Positions 1 through 9,639 of a stretch of 64,000 bases of DNA are shown here, in pieces. Position 1 is the first letter of the stretch. Every line of letters starts with the position of its first letter. The position numbers and the translations under genes are program-made. The notes beneath the pieces are model-generated. The model worked only from the letters and a program-made list of their open reading frames with translations. It searched no databases and was not told the DNA's origin. Source of the DNA: Citromicrobium bathyomarinum (GTDB lineage Bacteria; Pseudomonadota; Alphaproteobacteria; Sphingomonadales; Sphingomonadaceae); the NCBI GenBank assembly GCA_001306305.2, contig CP155577.1, positions 3,083,501-3,147,500 of the forward strand, in the 5' to 3' direction.

Positions 1-183
1 GGCGTTGTCGCCTTTGTAGCTGCCCTTCAGGAACGCCTGGAGGGTGCTCTCCGCGATCCCGACCGCTTTGGCATAGCGCGCCCAGGGAATCGGCGGATCG
101 GTCGCCTCGCGGTGGGCAATACCCCACAGCCGGATGTCTTCGATGTCGTCGTCATTGATCGGAAGTTGGCTTACGTTGATCAT
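1..183 (-). CDS. MuB-like transposition protein, N-terminal part
   Basis: The first 61 residues of a leftward gene cut by the window edge. The stretch STLQAFLKGSYKGDN closely resembles the N-terminal helix-turn-helix of phage Mu MuB, where GTISSFINDKYNGDN stands at the same place. MuB is a DNA-binding AAA+ ATPase that selects target DNA and activates the transposase. The ATPase domain lies outside the window. The ATG at 183 follows a purine-rich AGAAGGCAGGG and begins 16 bases after the transposase stop, matching the Mu A-B order. Confidence 0.85.
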   Translation of the reverse strand, partial: MINVSQLPINDDDIEDIRLWGIAHREATDPPIPWARYAKAVGIAESTLQAFLKGSYKGDNA

Positions 184-199
184 GATCCCTGCCTTCTGA

Positions 200-2179
200 T
201 TATTGGCTGTTCGCTGCGCGCTTCAGCAGTCCCGCGCGCATTCGATCGAGTGTCGCGGCGTTGTTCGCCGCCTTGGGGCGCGGCGATCGCTGCGCCTCGG
301 CATCCGGGTGTCTGACGGGGGCGACCACGCCCGCCTCGGGCTTGGCCGACTGCGCTTTCGATCCGGCCTGAAGCTCGATCAGCGCGTCGGCGGAGATCAG
401 CTCTTCCGCCTCGGCCAATGCCTTGGCCCGTTTGCGGTATTCGCCGGTTCGCTTGGCCGCTTCCTTCGCCCCGGCGACATCGGCAAAGCCGCTGTCCACC
501 AGCTCCGGCGCTGCGGTGATGTAGCGCCCCTCCAGATCGTAGACGTGGACCTCGGAATGCAGATTGTCCGGGTCGAACCGCACCGTCACCAGCTCGCCAC
601 GCAAAGCGGAAAGCTCCCGATGCCAGTAGCGATTGCCGTGCAGCTCGATCTCGCCGTTCAGGCTGTTGAGCTTCTTCTGGTCCGCCGCCAGAAGCGCCCA
701 GCGCAGGTGCTCCGGGCTCGCTTTCGAAATGCGTGAAGTGGCGTAGCTTTCGGCAAACACCTCGTCGAAGCTGCGGCCCTTGGCCGCTTCGGTGCGGCGT
801 CCGGTGCGCGCGTTGTGGCGGGTGATCCACTCGTCCACCAGCGCGGAGAAGGTATCCCACTCCACCACCTTGGTGCCGTAGTTCGAAGGCTTCGCCATCG
901 GGCTGGGGCCGGTGTACGCACCCTCACACTCCGGGGCCTTGCCGATGTAATTTTCCAGATCGCGAAACGCCCGCTCGATCGGCTTCGATTGGCCGTGATA
1001 GGGCAGCGCCGCGTGAACCTGCACGCCGACGCCAGTTAGCAACCCGACAGGCTCCTCCTGCTTGACCTTGAACCGGAAACGCTTGCCCCGGTGTCCGCCA
1101 GTGATCCACTTGCTCCAGAAGGCCCGGCTGTTGTCGAGCAGAGCGTGATGCGGGATGCCCCACTCGCGGAAGAGATCGGCAAAGGCGAGGCGAGTCTGGA
1201 TCGCGCTCTCCTCGCAGCCGAGCCGCCACGCCACGATCTTGCGGCTGTAAACGTCTTGGATCGCGACCAGCATAGGGCGGATCGGCTCCTTCGAGCGATG
1301 CATCGGCGGAGGTGCGACCCGCACGTCGAACTTGTGTCCGTCGATATTCACCCATTCGAGCGCGTGCATGCCGGCCACCGTTCGGCGGTTCGCGGGAACC
1401 GAGCGCACCAGCGCCTCTTCGCCTTGCCGTTTGAGCGTCCAGACCTCTGGCGGAACCTCCGCCTTCAAACGCCTCCTGAAGGTGCGCTCAACCGGGATCG
1501 AGACGCCCCTTTCCTCGGCCGCCGCCGCGACCCGCTCGTAACAGCTTGTCAAAGTGGGCGCAGACGGACGCAGCGCGAGCGACTTGAACAAAAGCCACAG
1601 ATCGTCCGGGATCGCTGCCTTGGCGCCGCCGCCCTTCCGCCGCGAGGCGAGCGCGGGCAGCCGGTCGGCCCGGTCGAGCCCGCGGACCTTTTTTATCCAG
1701 CCGAAAATGGTCGAGGAACCGATGTCCCTCTCTTGGGCGATCGCGGCCACAGCGGCGATACGCGAAGCGCCAGCGCCTTCCAGTGCCTCGACCTCGGCAA
1801 TGATGCTCAGCCGCTCTTCGGCCTCCCGCTTCACCTTGGCGGGCTGCCGCTCGAACCAGTTCCAAGCGTCTGCGCGCTGGGTCGCTGCGTCGGTTTTCGG
1901 GGCTTCCTCCGCGACCACGCCGCGACGGATCAGCTCAAGCCGCGCTTCGCCGGGCAGCAGAGCGAGGTGATACTCGGTCCCGCCGCCCCGGCCCGTGCGC
2001 TTGCGCACCAGCACTTCGCCATCATTGCCGACGCGGGACGCCCAGCGCTCTTCGCTCGCCCGCAGATTGATCCCGCGCTTGTTCGTCGGCAGGCCCGGCA
2101 GCGCCAGCTCCGCAAGCTCCGCTGCCGAGAACCATGCGTCCTCCTGCGTCATCGCAGCGATTGCCAGTTCTGCGCTCAT
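200..2179 (-). CDS. MuA-type DDE transposase
   Basis: A 659-residue protein close in length to Mu transposase A (663). Residues 10-75 form the Mu-type winged HTH that binds the phage ends. Residues 120-240 hold further HTH-like DNA-binding segments. The RNase H-fold integrase core covers about 270-420, with candidate catalytic D280 (in NIDGH), D349 (LLDNSR) and E402 (KPIERAF); the spacings of 69 and 53 are near those of MuA (67 and 56). The C-terminal beta-barrel and an Ala/Lys-rich tail, which in MuA contacts MuB, follow. It cuts phage ends and strand-transfers them during lysogenisation and replicative transposition. Start ATG at 2179 overlaps the preceding stop as ATGA, so it is translationally coupled. 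Confidence 0.96.
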   Translation of the reverse strand: MSAELAIAAMTQEDAWFSAAELAELALPGLPTNKRGINLRASEERWASRVGNDGEVLVRKRTGRGGGTEYHLALLPGEARLELIRRGVVAEEAPKTDAATQRADAWNWFERQPAKVKREAEERLSIIAEVEALEGAGASRIAAVAAIAQERDIGSSTIFGWIKKVRGLDRADRLPALASRRKGGGAKAAIPDDLWLLFKSLALRPSAPTLTSCYERVAAAAEERGVSIPVERTFRRRLKAEVPPEVWTLKRQGEEALVRSVPANRRTVAGMHALEWVNIDGHKFDVRVAPPPMHRSKEPIRPMLVAIQDVYSRKIVAWRLGCEESAIQTRLAFADLFREWGIPHHALLDNSRAFWSKWITGGHRGKRFRFKVKQEEPVGLLTGVGVQVHAALPYHGQSKPIERAFRDLENYIGKAPECEGAYTGPSPMAKPSNYGTKVVEWDTFSALVDEWITRHNARTGRRTEAAKGRSFDEVFAESYATSRISKASPEHLRWALLAADQKKLNSLNGEIELHGNRYWHRELSALRGELVTVRFDPDNLHSEVHVYDLEGRYITAAPELVDSGFADVAGAKEAAKRTGEYRKRAKALAEAEELISADALIELQAGSKAQSAKPEAGVVAPVRHPDAEAQRSPRPKAANNAATLDRMRAGLLKRAANSQ

Positions 2180-2637
2180 TCGCTTGCCCCTCCACGGCGG
2201 ATGGGCTGAGCGGTTCGGCGCAGATCTCGCGCCTTCGCCTGGAGCGCCCTGATCTCCTGTTCGATGCTGCCGAGTTCCACCGTCTCCAGCTCGCGTCCGG
2301 TGATCACGCCGCAGCCGGTTTCGCGCAGGTGCGCGTCGAGCAGATCGTAACGCCGCGTGACGACAACGATCGCCATCAGGCGGGAGAAGGGGATTTTGTG
2401 ATCCTCGCGTGAGGGGCTCGCATAGGCGTCGAGCATCGTCTTGGAGACTTCATCCGCCAGCAGCTTGCTGACCTCGGCTGCGATCCGGTAGCGATCGCGA
2501 CCGTCGCTATTGAGCATCTCGCCCACAAACACGTTGGTGCGCTTCTCGAACCCCGCGAGCGCGGCCTCGCCCGACGGCACCGCAGGTGCGTCGAAACAGA
2601 AGCCGATCTGATCGGGGTGCGATTTCGCCTTAGCCAT
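2176..2637 (-). CDS. Prophage early protein of unknown function, 153 aa
   Basis: I do not recognise a named family. The product is a soluble, charged, largely helical protein; a helical C-terminal segment (about residues 110-140) could dimerise. The chosen ATG at 2637 is preceded by GGAG nine bases upstream and overlaps the previous stop as ATGGCTAA; a longer ATG at 2652 lacks a ribosome site. Its stop overlaps the transposase ATG by four bases, so both are made from one message. Its place immediately before MuA suggests a role in early transposition or its control, which is inference only. Confidence 0.8.
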   Translation of the reverse strand: MAKAKSHPDQIGFCFDAPAVPSGEAALAGFEKRTNVFVGEMLNSDGRDRYRIAAEVSKLLADEVSKTMLDAYASPSREDHKIPFSRLMAIVVVTRRYDLLDAHLRETGCGVITGRELETVELGSIEQEIRALQAKARDLRRTAQPIRRGGASE

Positions 2638-2899
2638 CGCCGCCCGCTCCATCGTGCAGGGCGTCCCGTGAGGGCGCGAGGGAACCGGGCGCGTGACCGG
2701 ACGGCAGAACCGTAATGACCCGCCCTTCAAGGATCACGACGCGCTGGAGACCCGCCAGCTTCACATAGCGCGCGCCGAACTCCGAAGCCCGCTGGAACAC
2801 TGGCGCGTTGAGACGAGCGCAAACCTCCCGCGCAGGGACGTTCTCGACCCGCTCCTGGTAGCGCATGATCGCGTGCGAAGTGACGAGCAGCCTAGCCAT
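2630..2899 (-). CDS. Small prophage early protein, 89 aa
   Basis: No family recognised with certainty. The N-terminal pattern SHAIMRYQERV followed by a basic, strand-rich middle and a short GRVITVLPSG strand looks like the fold of small DUF4258-type or RelE-like RNA-binding proteins, in which an SxHA.xR motif near the N terminus is typical. This resemblance is by eye. The ATG at 2899 overlaps the upstream stop (ATGGCTAG), the same kind of overlap used elsewhere in this operon; an in-frame ATG at 2914 is the alternative. Its stop overlaps the next start. Confidence 0.7.
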   Translation of the reverse strand: MARLLVTSHAIMRYQERVENVPAREVCARLNAPVFQRASEFGARYVKLAGLQRVVILEGRVITVLPSGHAPGSLAPSRDALHDGAGGDG

Positions 2900-3839
2900 G
2901 AGGAAACCCGTCATGCGTGCACCCGTCGAGCAGGCGACCGGCGCGCTTCTTGCCCACCCTGACGAGGGCGGTGCTCATCGGGTTTTCGTGAACGCAGGCG
3001 AAGCCATCGGGCATCAGGTCAGCGCCGGGGAGACCATCGCCGAGCAGCGCCTCGTCCACGTCGTCCAGCGGGGCCCACTCGCCCCATTGCTTGAAGAGAA
3101 AGGGTACGCCTGCCGCTGCGCACTGGTCGCGCAAGGACCGCGCCCAATCGGGGTGCATGGGCCGTGCTTTGAGGCCGCTCTCTCCGCCGACGATCACCCA
3201 GTCGAGACTACGATGGCTGTCCCAAGTTGCCCCATACGGGCGATAGATTCCGCCGCTGAGTGACTTGATCACCCAGCCATCGCTAGGAATGCGCTCAAGA
3301 TCGACCGGCTCCAGCAGTGGTTCGCAGGAAAGAAAGCGTCGAGCGGCGGGAATGGCGAGCTGGACTGGCACGCGCCGGTTTGCCTCGGTCTGGTTCTCTG
3401 CCGTCGTCCCGATCCACACGTTCGGATAGCCCGCGCCCCAATCCGTAGGCAGATAGGTGGGCAGGTTCTGCGGGCGCTTCGTCAGGATCAGGAGGATGAC
3501 ATCGGGGCACTCGCGCGCCAGCTGCCAGACCTTCGCGCGCCATTCCGGCAGGATCGACCGATGATTGTCGGCGAAGTCGGACAGCGAATTGACGAAGATG
3601 CGCGGCTTGCGCCCATGCTCGGCGATGAACGCTGCTGCATTGCGCTGCATCTTGCGCACGACCTGCTCGCCAGCCTTCACGAAGCTGCGGTCCCCATGCG
3701 GGCCCCACAGGACCCGATGCTTCCGATGATCCCAGTCGGCTTCGGCGTAGCAGTGGTCGCACGCCGGGCTCAGCTTCGTGCAGCCGATCCAGAAGTTCGC
3801 CGTCGCGTCTGCCCATTCGATCTTGGTGTTATCAGCCAT
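2892..3839 (-). CDS. DUF5131 (phage Gp37/Gp68-type) three-cysteine protein
   Basis: A 315-residue member of the DUF5131 family (PF07505), recognisable from the opening NTKIEWADAT followed by C20, C27 and C30 in a C-x6-C-x2-C cluster, then IFVNSLSDFAD, LILTKRPQNL, WIGTTAENQ, FLSCEPLLEP, WVIVGGESG and a C-terminal FKQWGEW. The family has a TIM-barrel pattern like radical-SAM enzymes and its cysteines probably hold an Fe-S cluster, but no reaction is established to my knowledge. It occurs often in phages. ATG at 3839 follows GGAGG at good distance, two bases after the preceding TGA. A radical-SAM-like protein inside a transposition operon is notable. Confidence 0.88.
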   Translation of the reverse strand: MADNTKIEWADATANFWIGCTKLSPACDHCYAEADWDHRKHRVLWGPHGDRSFVKAGEQVVRKMQRNAAAFIAEHGRKPRIFVNSLSDFADNHRSILPEWRAKVWQLARECPDVILLILTKRPQNLPTYLPTDWGAGYPNVWIGTTAENQTEANRRVPVQLAIPAARRFLSCEPLLEPVDLERIPSDGWVIKSLSGGIYRPYGATWDSHRSLDWVIVGGESGLKARPMHPDWARSLRDQCAAAGVPFLFKQWGEWAPLDDVDEALLGDGLPGADLMPDGFACVHENPMSTALVRVGKKRAGRLLDGCTHDGFPHG

Positions 3840-3841
3840 CC

Positions 3842-4036
3842 TCAACGCCTCCGCTGTCCGAAATTATGCTTCCAGCGGACGCGCGGAGCTGCCGGATCGC
3901 TCGGCGCTTCGACCGTGCGCAGATCTTCGATCAGCTGCGCCGCATGGGCGTGGCCCGCTGCGGTCAGGCGGTTGTCGCTGCCCAGCAGGCCGCGCTCGCG
4001 CAGGTCCTGCCGCAGGGGTTCGATCCGCCCGCTCAC
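3842..4036 (-). CDS. Small prophage protein, 64 aa
   Basis: A 64-residue basic protein of unrecognised family. The first part, RIEPLRQDLRERGLLGSD, is helical, and the segment RLTAAGHAHAAQLIEDL resembles the winged-helix end of small phage regulators in which 'LTAAGHAHA' follows the recognition helix. It begins with GTG overlapping the previous TGA (GTGA) and ends two bases before the DUF5131 start, so it belongs to the same transcript. Function unknown. Confidence 0.65.
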   Translation of the reverse strand: MSGRIEPLRQDLRERGLLGSDNRLTAAGHAHAAQLIEDLRTVEAPSDPAAPRVRWKHNFGQRRR

Positions 4037-4266
4037 AGGATCACCTCGAACCCGCTTGTCCGGGCGAGATCGATCACGTCTTCGGCAAGCATCAGGTCGC
4101 GCTTGCCGGTCACCCGGTACTCACGGACCAGCGCGTCGCGGTTATGCACGTCGACCAGAACGCCGCGCCTGCGCAGATGCTTGGTCGCCGCGTCGATATT
4201 CGCCTTGCGCAGATCGAAAGGGATTTCGCGCGCGTTGGGGCTTGGGAGAACAGCCGTCTTAAGCAT
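4033..4266 (-). CDS. Small prophage protein, 77 aa
   Basis: A 77-residue protein of unrecognised family. It contains PFDLRKANIDAATKHLRRRGVLVDVHNRDALVREYRVTG in segments of helix-strand-helix, ending DVIDLARTSGFEVIL. ATG at 4266 overlaps the stop of the zinc-ribbon gene as ATGCTTAA; a longer reading frame to 4341 has no ribosome site and would overlap that gene by 80 bases. It may be a small DNA-binding protein, but nothing decisive is visible. Confidence 0.65.
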   Translation of the reverse strand: MLKTAVLPSPNAREIPFDLRKANIDAATKHLRRRGVLVDVHNRDALVREYRVTGKRDLMLAEDVIDLARTSGFEVIL

Positions 4267-4462
4267 CGCTGGTCTCCCCGCTCGCGATCGGGCAGGCCGA
4301 ATAGTTGCACGGCACCGTGCGCAGCTGCCCGCACGCGTCACATTTGGTGTAGGGCGCGATAGGCACCTGCATCACGCCCTTGCCGTAGGCAGGCCGGTCG
4401 CCGACCGTTTTGGCGACCACGCTTTCGGTCAGCCCGAACGGGGCGGGTTTGACGTTCGACAT
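4259..4462 (-). CDS. Small putative zinc-ribbon protein, 67 aa
   Basis: A 67-residue protein with four cysteines arranged CDACGQ...CNYSACP, the pattern of a small zinc ribbon or zinc knuckle. The N-terminal half lacks features. It follows the previous gene by four bases and overlaps the next one, so is part of the early operon. Small zinc-ribbon proteins are common in phage early regions; partner and role are not visible. Confidence 0.65.
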   Translation of the reverse strand: MSNVKPAPFGLTESVVAKTVGDRPAYGKGVMQVPIAPYTKCDACGQLRTVPCNYSACPIASGETSDA

Positions 4463-4466
4463 CGGC

Positions 4467-4673
4467 TTAGTCCCTCATCATCCAGGGTTCGTCGGGAAGA
4501 TCGCGCAGCCTCTGCGGTGCAGCCGTCTCGACCTTGCGCGTGCCGGTGGCACCCTTGTCGCGGCGGCGAAGCGCGAAGCGCGCCTCGATCGGCGTGCAGC
4601 CAGTCTCCAGCACCAGCGCCATCTCGTGCCTGTGCTGACGGTGTTTGTCGGCGAGCGATTGCCGGGCCATCAT
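4467..4673 (-). CDS. Small prophage protein, 68 aa
   Basis: A 68-residue very basic protein of unknown function. It starts MMARQSLADKHRQHRHEM, then has LETGCTPIEARFALRRRDKG, a short helix-turn-helix-like stretch. The ATG at 4673 overlaps the TGA of the preceding gene (ATGATG context), which fixes the start and argues for real translation. No family recognised. Confidence 0.6.
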   Translation of the reverse strand: MMARQSLADKHRQHRHEMALVLETGCTPIEARFALRRRDKGATGTRKVETAAPQRLRDLPDEPWMMRD

Positions 4674-4873
4674 GCGTCTCCCCGCTCCAGCTTGCGCGCG
4701 ATGCGCGCCTCGGTTTCGGCCTGCTCGCGCGCCCACAGCCTGCCCGCCAGACGACGCTCCAGCAGCGCCTCTTCGGCGCGCTCCTCGGGCGTCAGGGGTC
4801 GAGTGCAGCGCAGGCGCGAGAGTTGCTCACGGCGCGCTTTCTGCGCAGCTTCCTTGGCAGCATGCCGTCCCAT
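4670..4873 (-). CDS. Small charged coiled-coil prophage protein, 67 aa
   Basis: A 67-residue protein almost wholly made of charged helix rich in Arg, Glu and Ala (for example PEERAEEALLERRLAGR), predicted to form one long helix or coiled coil. The ATG at 4873 overlaps the stop of the preceding gene by ATGA. It lies in the early operon. Unknown function; small helical proteins of this type may act as adaptors or nucleic-acid binders, which is speculation here. Confidence 0.6.
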   Translation of the reverse strand: MGRHAAKEAAQKARREQLSRLRCTRPLTPEERAEEALLERRLAGRLWAREQAETEARIARKLERGDA

Positions 4874-5223
4874 CACGGGGCCACCCGGACAGGGCGGCGC
4901 ACGTGCTTCCTGCGGATCAGGTCGGTGAAGGCGCTCTCCGCCGCGATCAGTTCGTCCGCGCAGGGACGCACCTTGCGGAAGAAGCTCGCGTCGAAGATCT
5001 TGCCGGGGTAGCGATCGAAGCCGAGCCAAACGATCATCTCGCCCCTCACGGGGCATCGTTTGATGCGAACCTTGGTGACAGTGCGCGTCTCGCTCAGACG
5101 CGGCCCACCGGTATCCTCACGGGAGACTGCGCAGATCCACTCGCCCTGGACGATGCACTCGGCCATATCGCCCGCCTGCCACTGCTCGGGATCGATCGCC
5201 TTCTGCTTGCGGAAGAGGCCCAT
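4873..5223 (-). CDS. Prophage early protein, 116 aa
   Basis: A 116-residue protein of unrecognised family with an SH3-like or small beta-barrel look: GDMAECIVQGEW, then TVTKVRIKRCPV and MIVWLGFDRYPG strands, followed by a helical C terminus ending in a basic HVRRPVR tail. The GDMAEC...V pattern at about residues 18-26 is common in phage proteins read as small barrels. Both ends overlap neighbours by four bases (ATGA), so it is translationally coupled to the ParB-like gene upstream. Confidence 0.72.
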   Translation of the reverse strand: MGLFRKQKAIDPEQWQAGDMAECIVQGEWICAVSREDTGGPRLSETRTVTKVRIKRCPVRGEMIVWLGFDRYPGKIFDASFFRKVRPCADELIAAESAFTDLIRRKHVRRPVRVAP

Positions 5224-6197
5224 CAGCCTTGCTCCTCATCCAGCAGCTCGCGCAGCTGCGCTTTCATGTCCGGGGTCAGCTGTTCGACGAAGCTGGGCAA
5301 GAACCTGCGCTTCTGGCCGATGCTGAGACGGCTCCAGCCGCCGAGGATCTGATTGACGAACTTCTGCTGCGGCGCAGGCGTGGCATCCGGTCCGCGCTGC
5401 GCGACCTCGGCAGCGACCAGCGCGTCCTCGACCTTGCTCTCAGGATTTTCGAGCAGCGCCTCGATCACCCGCCGCCGTGCGGCTTCGTCTTTGACCTCGG
5501 CGATCTTCTTCAGCTGGCTCGCATTCTCGCCCACCACCGGATGCTGCGAGAGCGGCTCGGCCAGCCGGGGAAACGGCTCAACCACCAGCCGATAAAGCGC
5601 CAGATCACGCCGGATGGTGCGCTTATCGAAGCCCAGCGCGTCAGCCACAGCATCCTGCCAGCCATATACGGCGGACATCTTGTCCGCCGTATCATCGACC
5701 TCGGCATTGAGCGCCTTCTCAAGGTCCTCTTCGCCGTGCTTGACCCGCGCCCAGCGGGCCTTGATCGCCAGCTCCTGCTGCGAAAGATCGCCATGCTCGC
5801 GCGCGATGCGCTCCTGCGCGGCGCGCACCAGCGCGGCGGTGAACTTGGCCCGCTCGATCGGCGGCGGCGTCCTGCGGTGCAGGTTCTCGCTCGCCTCCAG
5901 CTGCTCCAGCTCGGCAGGTGTGCCGTCGACCACCAGCGCATGGATGCCGATCCCTTCGATCCGCGCGCCCATCGTGCGGTGCAGACCAACATGCAGCCGC
6001 CAGGGAAACTCGCTTCCCTCGGGCTGTGCCGAGACCTTGATCGGGTCGCGCTGGCCGTCGATCGCCATCAGCCTGCCGAACGCGGCTGCCTTGTCAGGAA
6101 AATAGAAGCCGATCCGGTCGAACACGTCGATCGTGTTCGGATCGAGGACCACGGCCTTGGCGCTCTCCAGCACCGACTTGGGCGCAGGAGCGTTCAT
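5223..6197 (-). CDS. ParB/Spo0J-like DNA-binding protein
   Basis: A 324-residue protein with the ParB/RepB layout. Residues about 25-115 form the ParB N-terminal domain with GLHRTMGAR and the ENLHR motif, equivalent to the ENLQR box of CTP-binding ParB proteins. Residues about 165-205 hold an HTH (VADALGFDKRTIRRDLALYRL). The C-terminal third is helical. ParB-like proteins bind DNA at specific sites and may spread as CTP-dependent clamps; in alphaproteobacterial Mu-like phages they sit in the early region before the transposase. No parA is near, so plasmid-style partition is unlikely. ATG 6197 overlaps the previous stop by ATGA; GTG/ATG choices farther upstream would overlap more. Confidence 0.88.
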   Translation of the reverse strand: MNAPAPKSVLESAKAVVLDPNTIDVFDRIGFYFPDKAAAFGRLMAIDGQRDPIKVSAQPEGSEFPWRLHVGLHRTMGARIEGIGIHALVVDGTPAELEQLEASENLHRRTPPPIERAKFTAALVRAAQERIAREHGDLSQQELAIKARWARVKHGEEDLEKALNAEVDDTADKMSAVYGWQDAVADALGFDKRTIRRDLALYRLVVEPFPRLAEPLSQHPVVGENASQLKKIAEVKDEAARRRVIEALLENPESKVEDALVAAEVAQRGPDATPAPQQKFVNQILGGWSRLSIGQKRRFLPSFVEQLTPDMKAQLRELLDEEQG

Positions 6198-6607
6198 TTG
6201 GCCGCTCCACATAGACGATGACCGGCATCGGTGGCGGACTTAGGCTCGTTGGCATGCTTCAGGGAGAACAGCCCATGCTCAAGTCCGACGCCGACCTTGT
6301 CGAGGAGCTGCAAGACAAGGTCTATGCCCTCCAACAGCTCCTTCTCGCGCTCATCGCGACCGAGCAGGCCATCGATCCGCGAATCGGCGATGGCGTTCGC
6401 GAGATCGCGATCAGCCAGATCGAGGCGCTCGCTCTCGACGGTCGGCACCGCGCCAGCATCCATCTGACGGGCCTCGTCGAGGCGCTTCTTCAGTGTCGAG
6501 ACTGACGCTTGAACGCACCGCAGCCTTTCGCGCAGCTCAACGCGACGAACGATCCGACGCGCACCGGCGGGATCAGCGAACCCACTTCCGTTCTGCAACG
6601 CGCTCAT
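6194..6607 (-). CDS. Prophage early helical protein, 137 aa
   Basis: A 137-residue mostly helical protein. Residues about 15-45 (RRIVRRVELRERLRCVQASVSTLKKRLDEA) and 60-120 form amphipathic helices with heptad-like leucines, so a coiled coil or helical bundle is likely. No family recognised. The ATG at 6607 overlaps the stop of the HTH gene as ATGA; longer frames run back into that gene. It is the second gene of the early operon, directly after the HTH regulator. Confidence 0.7.
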   Translation of the reverse strand: MSALQNGSGFADPAGARRIVRRVELRERLRCVQASVSTLKKRLDEARQMDAGAVPTVESERLDLADRDLANAIADSRIDGLLGRDEREKELLEGIDLVLQLLDKVGVGLEHGLFSLKHANEPKSATDAGHRLCGAAK

Positions 6608-6843
6608 GCCCAAGCCGCCTTCGGCTCGCCCGCATCGCGCTCTTCTTTCATCGTCTTCAGCGTGGAACGCAGTCCGACGATCGCATTGTAGCTCGCGCTG
6701 GTTGGCTCTGGGTTCCCCGGCGTCTGCTTCCAGCGCCAGAAGCTGCTGGGGTGGACACCCGCGCGCTTGCACAGCTGCGCAATCGAAAAACCGGCCCGAC
6801 GCGCCTCGCGCTCGATTTCGGCAATGGCTTCCTGCTGATCCAT
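6604..6843 (-). CDS. Small HTH protein (Ner/Cro-like), first gene of early operon
   Basis: A 79-residue protein with an N-terminal HTH: EIEREARRAGFSIAQLCKRAGVHPSSFWRWK, ending in a tryptophan-lysine recognition helix of the Cro/XRE type. It is the promoter-proximal gene of the leftward operon and diverges from the S24 repressor, the position of ner in Mu, whose product shuts down early and repressor transcription. ATG at 6843 is chosen because the codons upstream run into the perfect inverted repeat of the operator; an ATG at 6885 inside that repeat is the alternative. Function by position and fold. Confidence 0.78.
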   Translation of the reverse strand: MDQQEAIAEIEREARRAGFSIAQLCKRAGVHPSSFWRWKQTPGNPEPTSASYNAIVGLRSTLKTMKEERDAGEPKAAWA

Positions 6844-6846
6844 GCC

Positions 6847-6896
6847 AACTGCAATAACTGCATTTATGCAATCACACAACCGCATAAATGCAGTTA
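6847..6896. promoter_or_regulatory. Prophage operator: perfect 15-bp inverted repeat plus extra half-site
   Basis: TAACTGCATTTATGC at 6855-6869 and its exact reverse complement at 6882-6896 are separated by 12 bases. A further 9-bp half-site AACTGCAAT at 6847-6855 directly abuts AACTGCATT at 6856-6864, making a short tandem. The block is AT-rich against a GC-rich background and lies between the divergent HTH gene and repressor gene. This is the expected binding region for the S24 repressor and/or the Ner-like protein. Confidence 0.8.
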
Positions 6897-6929
6897 CGGT
6901 TGCGGTCGGCCATTTGGTAGCGATGGCCT

Positions 6930-7598
6930 GTGGACGGGCTAGAACAGGATACGGCGCTGGTGCGCGCGTTGGTTTCCCACGTCGGCGACCATGTGGCTGG
7001 CGTTGCGAAGAAGGCGGGCCTCGCTCCCTCGACTCTCCAGCGTCCCTACAAGGGCACCGCAGAGACCAGGATCAGCCAGCGCACCCTTGAAAAGCTGCGC
7101 GCCGCCTATCCTAATTTTCCAGGCTGGGCGCGGACACTGGAAAGTCCTCGCTCGACGTTCCATCACCAGCTCGTCGAAGAGGCTCGCGCAACCGATCTGG
7201 TCGAGATCGACGAAGTCGACCTGCGCTACGGCATGGGTGCCAGCGACGTGAGCGGGCATGTCGAGCCTGCAAAGCGCGTCTTCTCGCGCGAGTGGCTACG
7301 CAATTTCACCGATGCTCGCCCCGGCCAGCTCTACTGGGCGATCGGGCAGGGGGATTCGATGGAGCCAACGATCAGCAGCGGCGACCTCATCCTGATCGAC
7401 CGCAGTCAGGACACTATGTTTGACCGCGACCTGATCTGGGCCTGCACCGTGGGCGACTTCGGCATGATCAAACGCTTGCGCCCGACACGCGACGGCGTCA
7501 CCATTATGTCAGACAATCCCAGCGTGACGGATGACTTCGCCACCGATGGCGAACTGACCATAATCGGTCGCGTGATCGCCAAGGTGGGGAAGCTATGA
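6930..7598 (+). CDS. S24-family (LexA/CI-like) prophage repressor
   Basis: A 222-residue repressor. Residues 10-65 form a DNA-binding domain with HTH (GVAKKAGLAPSTLQRPYKG). Residues 130-222 form the LexA/CI S24 peptidase domain, with catalytic Ser143 in GQGDSMEP and Lys181 in MIKRLRP. Such proteins keep the prophage silent and are inactivated by RecA-stimulated self-cleavage, so SOS induction is expected; no clear Ala-Gly or Cys-Gly cleavage pair stands out in the linker (Gly-Met-Gly at 101-103 and Ser-Gly at 108-109 are present). It begins with GTG at 6930 and overlaps the next gene by ATGA. Confidence 0.92.
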   Translation: MDGLEQDTALVRALVSHVGDHVAGVAKKAGLAPSTLQRPYKGTAETRISQRTLEKLRAAYPNFPGWARTLESPRSTFHHQLVEEARATDLVEIDEVDLRYGMGASDVSGHVEPAKRVFSREWLRNFTDARPGQLYWAIGQGDSMEPTISSGDLILIDRSQDTMFDRDLIWACTVGDFGMIKRLRPTRDGVTIMSDNPSVTDDFATDGELTIIGRVIAKVGKL

Positions 7599-8050
7599 CC
7601 CGACTGCTTTCACTATTCGCAGCATCCCTCTTGCTGGCGGCTCCCTGTGCCGCCCAGGTGAAGGTCGATCCCGATGCCGACCTGAACTATCTGACGCCGC
7701 ACTGGATTGTGCTCTCTGATGGCAGCCAGATGACCTTGCTGACTGCTCCCGATCTGAACACGGCGACATTGGTCAGATGCTGGCCCGAGGAAGGCAGCTT
7801 CGAATGCCTGCGCGCCTACGAGAACTGGGCGACCGGTTTCGAAGCGCGTGGGGTTGAGTGGTTTTCTCGGGAAGACCTGGCCGGGCTCATGCTCGCCACC
7901 CCAAGCAACAATGGCTGTTCGGTGATCTTGGACCGAATTAGTGATGACGGAACGGTCGAGGGTTGCGAGAGCCTTATCATAGAGATGCATCGCGGCGGGC
8001 TTCTGGCGCTAGCTCGCACTCCACGTGCCTCGCTCGCCGACGCTAGCTAA
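7595..8050 (+). CDS. Exported protein coupled to the prophage repressor
   Basis: A 151-residue protein with a clear Sec signal peptide (basic MTRLL, hydrophobic core, cleavage likely after ...PCAAQ near residue 21). The mature part has four cysteines, which fits a disulfide-bonded periplasmic domain, and no recognised family. Its ATG overlaps the repressor stop (ATGA), so it is expressed with the repressor in the lysogen. That pattern is typical of lysogenic-conversion or superinfection-exclusion genes; the function is inferred from context only. Confidence 0.78.
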   Translation: MTRLLSLFAASLLLAAPCAAQVKVDPDADLNYLTPHWIVLSDGSQMTLLTAPDLNTATLVRCWPEEGSFECLRAYENWATGFEARGVEWFSREDLAGLMLATPSNNGCSVILDRISDDGTVEGCESLIIEMHRGGLLALARTPRASLADAS

Positions 8051-8230
8051 AACCCGCCCACTTCCCACCCGCCTCGTCTCATGGCCGGCGAGCCGCGACC
8101 GCCAAATTCAGCAATAATATCAGCAACAACCCAGTTCCATCCCTGAAAGGCCTAACTGGGCGACCTTCAGCCCGGTTCGCCAGATCGATTTCACCGGCTC
8201 AAAGGGTCGGCCACGGCCCACAAGGCCCAT

Positions 8231-8268
8231 CTTAAGTGGCGCTAACCCGCGCTTAAGGCGCTCTTAAG
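8231..8268. repeat. Three CTTAAG palindromes near the prophage end
   Basis: CTTAAG occurs at 8231-8236, 8252-8257 and 8263-8268, each followed by a G-rich base run (TGGCG, GCG, GCG), within otherwise non-coding DNA. The spacing is 21 and 11 bases, about two and one helical turns. They could be internal transposase-binding sites or regulatory sites of the phage end. The 545-bp interval 8051-8595 holds no long gene; besides these repeats, the short reading frame, the tandem units and the phoH leader I see nothing else in it. Confidence 0.45.
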
Positions 8269-8386
8269 GCGAATGTCAGGAAGCACCGTCTAAGAACCGC
8301 CCAAGGGCCTCTCGACGGCCATTTGATCGTATATTTGGGCTGCCACTCTAGACAGTCCCGCCGATCGCCAAATTTTGGGAGGACCC

Positions 8387-8485
8387 ATGACGAAGCCCAC
8401 AATTGAGCCGTTTACCGGCCCTCACGATCCCAGACGATCCCGGTTAATCCCGGCAACGCCCCTTCTAGAACCTTGTGTCCACTAA
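8387..8485 (+). CDS. Possible 32-aa small ORF at prophage end
   Basis: A 32-codon frame starting at ATG 8387, preceded by a strong ribosome site (TGGGAGG, six bases away), and ending with TAA at 8483. The product would be proline- and arginine-rich with no hydrophobic segment. Its body contains the three tandem 10-bp units, so the coding appearance may be accidental. Listed because the ribosome site is better than that of most genes here; real expression is doubtful. Confidence 0.25.
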   Translation: MTKPTIEPFTGPHDPRRSRLIPATPLLEPCVH

Positions 8486-8489
8486 CACA
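8424..8489. repeat. Tandem 10-bp units and candidate prophage terminus
   Basis: ACGATCCCAG (8424-8433), ACGATCCCGG (8434-8443) and TTAATCCCGG (8444-8453) are three consecutive 10-bp units, one helical turn each. Beyond them, TGTGTCCACTAACACA (8474-8489) is an imperfect inverted repeat ending in CA; read inward from the right this gives a phage end starting TGTG, as Mu-family ends start with TG. The phoH leader begins right after. The boundary is a candidate only. Confidence 0.5.
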
Positions 8490-8595
8490 CGTGACACTCG
8501 GGTGACTTTCCACCGGCGCGAGATGCTGCCGCTTGCCTCGCCCGCCGCGCAGCTTACATTCGGGACTCGCAATGCCTCGAGCCTGAAAGGAGCGC

Positions 8596-9639
8596 ATGGG
8601 CCGCAGACCAACTCGCGCCGGAGAGCCCCGGCTCTCCCCGCCACCGCACCCCCAGCGCGAGGTACGCCGCGCACGGGCCGAAATGAATTTCGAGAACCAG
8701 TCGCTGCTGGTCCCGCTGTTCGGCCAGTTCGATGCCAACCTCGTGCAGGTGGAAAACCGCCTGTCGGTGTTCATCTCCGCCCGCGGCGACAAGGTGATGA
8801 TCGAAGGGCCGGAGGATTCGGTCGCCCGCGCGCGGGATGTGTTGCAGGCGATGTACGACAAGCTGGCTCTGGGGCAGGATCTGGACGAAGGCGCGATCGA
8901 GGCGATCATCGCGATGACCAACGAACCCACGCTCGACGGGATCATCAAGGGGCGGAAGGCCGGCGAGGACGGCGCACCGCCGATCATGATCCGCACCCGC
9001 CGCAAGACCATCGTCCCGCGCAGCGCGGTGCAGGCGCATTACATGCGCTCGCTCAGCCGCGACGACATCATCTTCGCGCTCGGCCCCGCAGGAACGGGCA
9101 AGACCTACCTCGCGGTCGCGCAGGCGGTCGCGCAGCTGACCAGCGGCAGCGTGCAGCGCCTGATCCTCAGCCGCCCGGCGGTGGAAGCGGGCGAGAAGAT
9201 CGGCTTCCTGCCCGGCGACATGAAGGAGAAGGTCGATCCCTTCCTGCGCCCGCTCTACGACGCGCTGTACGACTGCATGCCGCCCGAACAGGTGGAGCGG
9301 CACATCGCCAGCGGGGTGATCGAGATCGCGCCCATCGCCTTCATGCGCGGACGCACGCTGGCCGATGCCTTCGTGATCCTCGACGAAGCGCAGAACACCA
9401 CGCGCGAGCAGATGAAGATGTTCCTCACCCGCTTCGGCCAGAACAGCCGGATGGTGATCGCGGGCGACCCCCGCCAGGTCGACATCCCCGGCGGCGACCG
9501 CATGAGCGGCCTCGCCGACGCGGTCGACAAGCTGGAAGGGATCGAAGGCTTCGGCACGATCCGCTTCACCAGCGCCGACGTGGTGCGCCACCCTATCGTG
9601 GGGCGGATCGTCGATGCGTACGAGGGGACGGGGGAGTGA
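8596..9639 (+). CDS. phoH: PhoH-like phosphate-starvation ATPase
   Basis: A 347-residue PhoH-family protein. Residues about 35-85 carry the N-terminal KH-like part, followed by the P-loop ATPase with Walker A GPAGTGKT (163-170), SRPAVEAGE, and Walker B ILDEAQN (261-267), then a sensor-like GDPRQVD. Such proteins are predicted RNA-associated ATPases; in alphaproteobacteria phoH sits with ybeY and corC in a conserved rRNA-maturation/envelope cluster. ATG 8596 follows AAAGGAG. An internal ATG at residue 30 is the alternative start. The prophage ends about 105 bases upstream, so the original promoter context may have been changed. Here ybeY is 8.5 kb downstream. Confidence 0.95.
   Translation: MGRRPTRAGEPRLSPPPHPQREVRRARAEMNFENQSLLVPLFGQFDANLVQVENRLSVFISARGDKVMIEGPEDSVARARDVLQAMYDKLALGQDLDEGAIEAIIAMTNEPTLDGIIKGRKAGEDGAPPIMIRTRRKTIVPRSAVQAHYMRSLSRDDIIFALGPAGTGKTYLAVAQAVAQLTSGSVQRLILSRPAVEAGEKIGFLPGDMKEKVDPFLRPLYDALYDCMPPEQVERHIASGVIEIAPIAFMRGRTLADAFVILDEAQNTTREQMKMFLTRFGQNSRMVIAGDPRQVDIPGGDRMSGLADAVDKLEGIEGFGTIRFTSADVVRHPIVGRIVDAYEGTGE

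Follow-up and report, generated by a model that had tools for sequence, protein, structure and literature searches.

A predicted exported four-cysteine protein encoded in an exchangeable slot behind the repressor of a Mu-like Citromicrobium prophage: a candidate envelope exclusion factor

Results

A cargo gene overlapping the repressor gene

The DNA analysed here, called the window, is a 64,000-nucleotide stretch of Citromicrobium bathyomarinum contig CP155577.1 (positions 3,083,501 to 3,147,500); coordinates are those of the window unless the contig is named. It carries a prophage repressor gene, P0002 (6930-7598, plus strand), followed on the same strand by a cargo gene, P0001 (7595-8050), which starts with ATG and codes for a 151-aa protein, predicted to be exported, with a CX8C motif and two more cysteines. 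The ATG of P0001 and the TGA of the repressor gene (7596-7598) share the tetranucleotide ATGA, which bears out the overlap, here of 4 nt, described in the initial annotation. The purine-rich sequence GGTGGGGAAG lies immediately 5' of the ATG, and the stretch 7582-7594 (plus strand), within the last repressor codons, was read by eye as a ribosome-binding stretch. P0001 is probably translated from the repressor message. Inside the 3' end of the repressor gene, upstream of the cargo, a promoter-like site (7537-7564, plus strand; 9 of 12) could drive P0001 separately; one such site was found where 0.3 (sd 0.6) was expected, so it is possibly a chance occurrence, and an own promoter at this place would still allow P0001 to be a lysogeny gene. 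The scan of positions 6600-8600 yielded one terminator-like site (1.4 expected), which is inside the repressor gene.

The N-terminus of P0001 is MTRLLSLFAASLLLAAPCAAQ, and its first 21 residues read as a Sec-type signal peptide, a call made with our own hydrophobicity rule and by reading rather than with signal-peptide software. No hydrophobic segment was found in the mature part (best 19-residue mean 0.88), and export, as originally suggested, appears likely. Of the five cysteines of P0001, four (C62, C71, C108 and C124) belong to the mature part and one, C18, to the signal peptide, thus the earlier description as a four-cysteine protein is correct for the mature form. The context of C18, AAPC, is not a lipobox. 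The frame is intact and contains a DGS motif. The G+C content of the gene is 60.1%, compared with 52.6% for the cargo of the related prophage P2 and 66.2% for the resident prophage, P1, overall.

The repressor has an S24/LexA-type C-terminal domain (Pfam Peptidase_S24, 7e-17; PHROG transcriptional repressor, 4e-26) and a variable N-terminal DNA-binding domain. Repressors of this kind are mosaics: those of contigs L007 and L008 combine a P0002-like C-terminal domain with a different DNA-binding half. A divergent small HTH gene (6604-6885, minus strand; true start perhaps 6843) occupies the place of ner. Between it and the repressor gene there is a perfect 15-bp inverted repeat with a 12-nt spacer (6855-6896), likely the operator. 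P2, P3 and L003 yielded no comparable repeat at the settings used, which would fit different immunity.

The resident Mu-like prophage and its relatives

The window begins inside prophage P1, which occupies positions 1-8487 and has its left terminus at 8487. The whole element (contig 3054980-3091987, 37,008 bp) has the ends TGTTAG...CTACA (TG..CA) and is flanked by a 5-bp target-site duplication, CACGT, with one copy at 8488-8492 and the other at contig 3054975-3054979. It encodes a MuA-type transposase (200-2179, minus strand; Pfam Mu domains, DDE_2 5e-41) and, in the early region between transposase and repressor, a DUF5131 protein (2892-3845, minus strand; Pfam 5e-77). Two related prophages reside in the same chromosome, P2 (contig 3017019-3054843, TTCCG flanking both ends) and P3 (contig 1747309-1786176, GCCAA flanking both ends), and the exact prophage ends were derived by comparing these relatives. 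The ends and the Mu transposase show the prophage to be Mu-like, with P0001 between its repressor gene and its left end. In another contig a SRAP (YedK/HMCES-type) gene lies between cargo and left end (L005:5819-6493, Pfam 4.5e-25), and a SRAP protein is also readable at the left end of P3.

The transposases of P1 and P2 are 98.9% identical. The two prophages are arranged tail-to-tail, with matching ends and separate 5-bp duplications, and only 136 bp (contig 3054844-3054979) lie between them. Mu target immunity would be expected to hinder a second insertion so close to the first. In a genome of the same genus (G297) the left flank, the 136-bp centre and the right flank are contiguous with 5-bp overlaps, and the site is therefore empty there. 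In a genome of the same species (G387, L049) about 1.2 kb of other DNA is present between centre and right flank at the P1 site, so this spot may have received an insert there too.

Exchange of the cargo between close relatives

The corresponding slot of P2 holds a gene for a 183-aa homologue of P0001 (E 7e-6, and 1e-8 in another search). The two proteins share 31% identity in pairwise alignment and 26-29% in larger alignments. At the DNA level the similarity between P1 and P2 stops 4 bp before the end of the repressor gene, is absent over the cargo, and is back at 8100, 50 bp past the cargo stop, from where the left-end DNA (8100-8487) is 91.5% identical over 388 bp, reaching the prophage end. 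The exchange is cleaner still in IMG/VR contigs L005 and L007, which are 95% identical until 3 bp beyond the repressor stop, then carry genes for unrelated membrane-type proteins of 106 and 110 aa, and are again 93.4% identical over the last 757 bp to the contig end. L005 and L006 have the same cargo and are alike across the whole compared part. Judged from these alignments, P0001 is a swapped cargo (moron) cassette: close relatives differ in the slot, whereas its flanks are conserved.

Contents of the slot across repressor loci

Repressor homologues were sought in 249 genomes of the family (32 matching at 1e-15) and 396 genomes of the order (22 at 1e-25); contigs were searched too, with 1 locus found among those of genomes and 7 and 36 among the viral ones. 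One of the searches gave 41 matches, from which slots were taken at 30 loci and at two in the own genome, nine being left out. In total there were 85 loci, copies included, with a repressor scoring at least 99 bits. At 72 of these a closed ORF of at least 60 aa starts between -40 and +60 nt from the repressor stop; at the other 13 the repressor is at or over the contig end, or the first ORF lies further away or is open-ended. Removal of duplicates left 56 loci.

Slot proteins were called N-hydrophobic by a rule of our own (12-residue mean of at least 1.9 in the first 40 residues), applied to a set in which some ORFs may be spurious. By this rule 27 of the 56 non-redundant loci have an N-hydrophobic slot protein, or 35 if internal membrane segments are counted. 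Among the nine closest non-redundant repressors, whose slots represent seven families, the number is eight, while the middle and the lowest similarity bands gave 5/16 and 14/31. For comparison, among genes coding for no more than 300 aa the rule was satisfied by 11 of 106 in P1-P3 (the P1 cargo included) and by 6 of 36 in the host. For the nine closest slots the difference has P values of 1e-6 against phage genes and 1e-4 against host genes, and for all 56 slots 1.5e-7 and 0.0017; these values are too good, because related loci, and also genes of P1 and P2, were treated as independent. No difference from host genes was seen in the middle band (P 0.20; 0.04 against phage genes), and for the lowest band P is 0.011 against host genes. 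Counted by slot family, 23 of 42 are N-hydrophobic, and such a protein is present at 10 of the 16 loci where the overlap is exactly 4 nt.

Other slot proteins are of HSDR_N restriction type (L013) or carry TerB/WYL (L016), HIRAN (L100) or DUF2939 (L076) domains. These counts and contents describe an accessory slot whose bias towards exported or anchored products is strong near P1's kind and weak or absent further out. The slot product of two contigs (L063:4196-4390 and L064) is secreted, rich in cysteines (CCKxCxxGKxCGD...) and 64 to 66 aa long, and that of L063 had no match in Pfam or PHROGs. Of five isolated phages, only Microcystis phage Mae-JY29 has a slot protein satisfying the N-hydrophobic rule. 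The one following the S24 gene of Rhodovulum phage vB_RhkS_P1 is just under it (1.81) and reads as having a signal peptide, that of Sinorhizobium phage Aussie is hydrophilic, and MP22 and Pelagibaca phage vB_PeaS-P1 (a partial record) have no annotated gene in the slot.

A family defined by CX8C and two further cysteines

With the P0001 sequence alone, one of 296 genomes of the order was matched, its own. A search of viral contigs with P0001, the P2 paralogue and a two-row profile made from both detected no relative, and tblastn of P0001 against a phage collection matched a single record (E = 3), a minor tail protein from a mycobacteriophage, and this was taken as chance. In the absence of sequence homologues in these two collections, P1 and P2 are the sole clear phages with the family here. 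The two-row profile matched 8 of 397 genomes of the taxonomic family, the own genome and seven others, and with a profile of seven rows there were hits in 7 of 346 genomes of the order, the own included; all genomes matched by either profile belong to the window's own taxonomic family. Among the seven other genomes matched by the two-row profile, the hit in G241 (E 0.005, within a 3,096-aa frame) was dropped as chance. Two plasmids were found by tblastn with one family member. With L120 and the copy on the Sphingobium plasmid left out, both being duplicates of L119, the family has 14 members, 13 aligned sequences and a Sphingopyxis plasmid protein (L133).

The first two cysteines are spaced by exactly nine (CX8C) in all 14 members. 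All four cysteines are invariant in the 13 aligned members, and L133 also has four. A strict lipobox is present in seven of the 14, and a near-lipobox cysteine in four more: L002, L129 and L131 under a less strict pattern that the AAPC of P0001 also satisfies, and L122 by eye. P0001, L117 and L133 were counted as having neither. Since only a part of the members has it, the lipobox is not a defining feature. All members, whether by lipid, by membrane anchor or free, would put the domain in the periplasm. P0001 is the shortest of the 14, with a Cys3-Cys4 interval about 35 residues shorter than in the P2 paralogue. In the plasmid-type pair L119/L125, dN is 0.046 and dS 1.13, and dN being far below dS indicates that purifying selection acts strongly on this branch.

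That no known family could be recognised, as stated at the outset, held for the members scanned: seven of the 14 matched no family in Pfam, NCBIfam or PADLOC (best E 0.06), and five of the 14 matched none in PHROGs (best E 0.1). A literature search, which was not motif-based, found no publication on the family.

Genomic company of the family members

By our reading, ten of the 14 members are on prophages, plasmids, or conjugative or integrase-bearing islands, and four are chromosomal without such a sign. The members of P1 and P2 are in Mu-like prophages. L117 has an XRE-type regulator upstream and a partial phage integrase about 5 kb off, and L122 and L128 each have a tyrosine integrase nearby. 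L119 has an identical counterpart on Sphingobium plasmid pBSY17_4 and adjoins a Tn3 transposase and ParD/ParE genes. L133, on Sphingopyxis plasmid pSfKp5.2, is the last gene of a run containing a PLD-like protein. L125 is about 5 kb from TraL and about 1 kb from an SNase-type lipoprotein; L127 lies between a DNA methylase/ParB-type gene and a secretion-type ATPase about 6 kb on; L118 adjoins a primase-polymerase, with a GmrSD-type gene a few kb off. The chromosomal members are next to a uracil phosphoribosyltransferase gene (L121), next to a polysaccharide biosynthesis flippase-type gene (L129 and L130; Pfam was run for that of L129 only) and about 1 kb from an S24 gene (L131). Comparison of ten wider member contexts with the proteins of P1-P3 gave no match except cargo and repressor.

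The initial annotation had proposed a search for homologues behind the repressors of other Mu-like prophages. Such a homologue is present in P2, in the same slot; P1 and P2 are the only clear phages with the family in these searches. With ten of the 14 members read as lying on mobile elements, homologues were not found mainly in chromosomal operons unrelated to phages.

Two of these neighbourhoods deserve description in their own right. On pSfKp5.2 (L133:2001-6459) a 504-aa gene, a 791-aa PLD-like gene with a borderline Pfam score and the CX8C gene form a run that resembles a defence operon; the PLD-like gene overlaps the 504-aa gene, and its end overlaps the CX8C gene. In a TraL-bearing region an SNase-type nuclease gene with a lipoprotein-like start (L137:7370-7903, Pfam 2.5e-9) is separated from the CX8C gene by about 1 kb; a periplasmic nuclease of this type could act on incoming DNA.

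Predicted structure

An AlphaFold2 model of the P2 paralogue, built from 13 sequences (pLDDT 85.5, pTM 0.76), has seven strands followed by helices. The structure model of P0001 was built from seven sequences and has a pLDDT of 73. In both models the first two cysteines (59 and 68 in the P2 paralogue, C62 and C71 in P0001) oppose each other across a predicted hairpin, a pairing register that we read from the strand limits rather than from a measured distance. This geometry is compatible with a C62-C71 disulfide, as expected in the periplasm. Searches with the two models against PDB and viral structures gave no hit with E below 0.08 (best 0.24, 0.69 and 0.084). Foldseek combined with VIA-align, applied to the model of the P2 paralogue against the PDB, gave VIA-align Z values of at most 4.6, and the best E of a sequence profile against PDB chains was 0.55. 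These comparisons exclude no family, and we do not claim a new fold.

Discussion

Proposed role and competing explanations

In the scheme that we favour, a cargo cassette sits between the repressor gene and the left end. The repressor message probably also serves for its translation, and the product would accordingly be made during phage dormancy. After export, the product would adopt a beta-rich, disulfide-braced fold in the periplasm, as a member of a family that competing mobile elements carry. Its likeliest action there would be to hinder other phages or conjugative elements, either the entry of their DNA or their entry machinery, and such envelope-level exclusion would have its specificity altered by cassette swapping. 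Taken as a whole, a lysogeny-expressed moron cassette that encodes a periplasmic envelope exclusion factor is in our view the best explanation, and one offered tentatively, at somewhat less than an even chance. The central step, obstruction of the periplasmic entry of competing phage or conjugative DNA, is a guess to which we give about the same guarded credence; it was made because of the genomic company of the family and the precedents of Ltp, the mEpimmI Lpp proteins and Fc02.

Several observations count against exclusion. P1 and P2 co-reside in one chromosome though they are alike outside the switch, which speaks against a strong barrier: one of them got in while the other was present, or they arrived together. 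Four of the 14 family members are chromosomal, and the phage collection and viral contigs gave no sequence homologue. The slot also holds genes for non-exported products, some of defence type (HSDR_N, L013), and its middle similarity band is no richer in N-hydrophobic products than host genes. P0001 itself is the shortest member, has no usable lipobox and gave the weaker model (pLDDT 73 vs 85.5). Coupling to the repressor may not be the sole source of its expression, given the promoter-like site.

One alternative is lysogenic conversion without exclusion. Here the host would profit from an altered envelope trait, produced for instance through binding of the protein to a surface polymer or to an enzyme of the periplasm, and this benefit would be why mobile elements spread the protein. 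The members outside prophages, two of them beside a chromosomal flippase-type gene, the purifying selection in the plasmid-type pair and the diverse content of the slot all suit this explanation. It accounts less well for the ten of 14 members that we read as sitting on elements competing for entry, and swapping next to the repressor is the behaviour expected of immunity-linked genes. We consider conversion of this kind a somewhat unlikely alternative that nevertheless deserves attention.

The features that set P0001 apart from its relatives, its short length, the Cys3-Cys4 interval reduced by about 35 residues and the missing lipobox, could mean that it is a decaying copy, shortened and deprived of its lipobox, translated and inactive, in a slot tolerating any insert. 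The evidence of selection comes from the L119/L125 pair. An intact frame that has kept the four conserved cysteines, the signal peptide, the DGS motif and the 4-nt overlap speaks, however, against decay, and we regard this hitchhiker explanation as improbable.

Small disulfide-bearing periplasmic lipoproteins are a common form of immunity proteins, and one plasmid copy adjoins ParD/ParE genes. Both facts would agree with a self-protection role in which P0001 neutralises a periplasmic toxin or muralytic activity of the element's own kind, so that its loss would be harmful. No cognate toxin gene was recognised next to the cargo in P1 or P2, however, and the neighbours vary between loci, which leaves this role only a small chance of being correct.

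That P0001 is a chance open frame, of which G+C-rich DNA has many (119 listed in 20 kb), is already contradicted by conservation, namely the homologue in the same slot, the members on unrelated elements, the invariant cysteines and dS far above dN in a related pair, and is exceedingly improbable.

Returning to envelope exclusion, a wider proposal can be made for transposable phages of Erythrobacter-like and related bacteria. Their immunity locus might consist of two modules, an exchangeable DNA-binding half of the repressor providing transcriptional immunity and an equally exchangeable cassette, translated along with it from one message, providing an envelope barrier. The CX8C family, perhaps with a new periplasmic fold, would then be one such barrier, used by prophages, plasmids and islands against rivals. 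As a complete scheme we hold this to be unlikely, with perhaps a quarter of our confidence behind it. If it is true, the cassettes could help to explain the resistance of Citromicrobium polylysogens to non-carried phage, and if the CX8C protein blocks entry, the barrier would be common to phages and plasmids. A testable protein family can now be named, and a fixed site in Mu-like prophages gives candidate exclusion genes by position, not by homology.

Comparison with known systems

Among known exclusion proteins, the P22 SieA type is an integral inner-membrane protein, whereas mature P0001 is without a hydrophobic segment (19-residue mean 0.88). The mature part of Ltp is helical. Compared by description with this helical lipoprotein, P0001 has no lipobox and its P2 paralogue has seven predicted strands. 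Ltp of Streptococcus phage TP-J34 is a superinfection-exclusion lipoprotein which prevents DNA injection (PMC3952083). Like P0001 it is extracytoplasmic and encoded in the lysogeny module on the repressor strand, and it is expressed from the prophage; it differs by its Gram-positive host and by a metalloproteinase-motif gene between the repressor gene and ltp (PMC3952083). The Lpp proteins of mEpimmI coliphages are exclusion lipoproteins whose exclusion was tested by expression (PMC11893012). By description they resemble P0001 in being small, phage-borne and of several sequence types, but their genes are in the structural cluster while P0001 is beside the repressor (PMC11893012). Exclusion has been reviewed (PMC11436027).

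The nearest model system is Citromicrobium. A Mu-like prophage was described in its strain JL354 (PMC3338782). Another study, in which C. bathyomarinum JL1366 served as a permissive host, states that Mu-like phages dominate in Citromicrobium and that a double lysogen resists a non-carried phage for a cause left unexplained there (PMC12486242); slot genes, if present in those phages, would be early candidates for the resistance.

Variable accessory genes are familiar from other transposable phages. Mu-like phages of Pseudomonas aeruginosa have short variable accessory genes at fixed sites (PMC4378225), and gene 12 of Burkholderia phage KS10, a hypothetical gene with no significant match, adjoins the repressor gene on the same strand and on the downstream side (PMC2628397); the available parts of these two papers describe no exported family like CX8C for the accessory regions or for gene 12 (PMC4378225, PMC2628397). 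Phage MP22 differs from P1 in that a gene-free stretch of 169 bp separates the left end from its annotated repressor gene. The tblastn search of the phage collection with P0001 matched no Pseudomonas phage record of that collection, which may lack Fc02. A close counterpart by position is e4 of Fc02, a Mu-like Pseudomonas phage. To e4 the accessible text assigns no function and for it states no export (PMC9936078), and our comparison is one of position. Like P0001, e4 is an accessory gene directly 3' of a transposable-phage repressor and is present in some relatives only (PMC9936078). A variable gene 3' of such a repressor is thus already known, with KS10 gene 12 in the same place, and for the distant Mu-like phage Fc02 the study reports, by RNA-Seq, a lysogen transcript spanning the repressor gene and the downstream e4 (PMC9936078).
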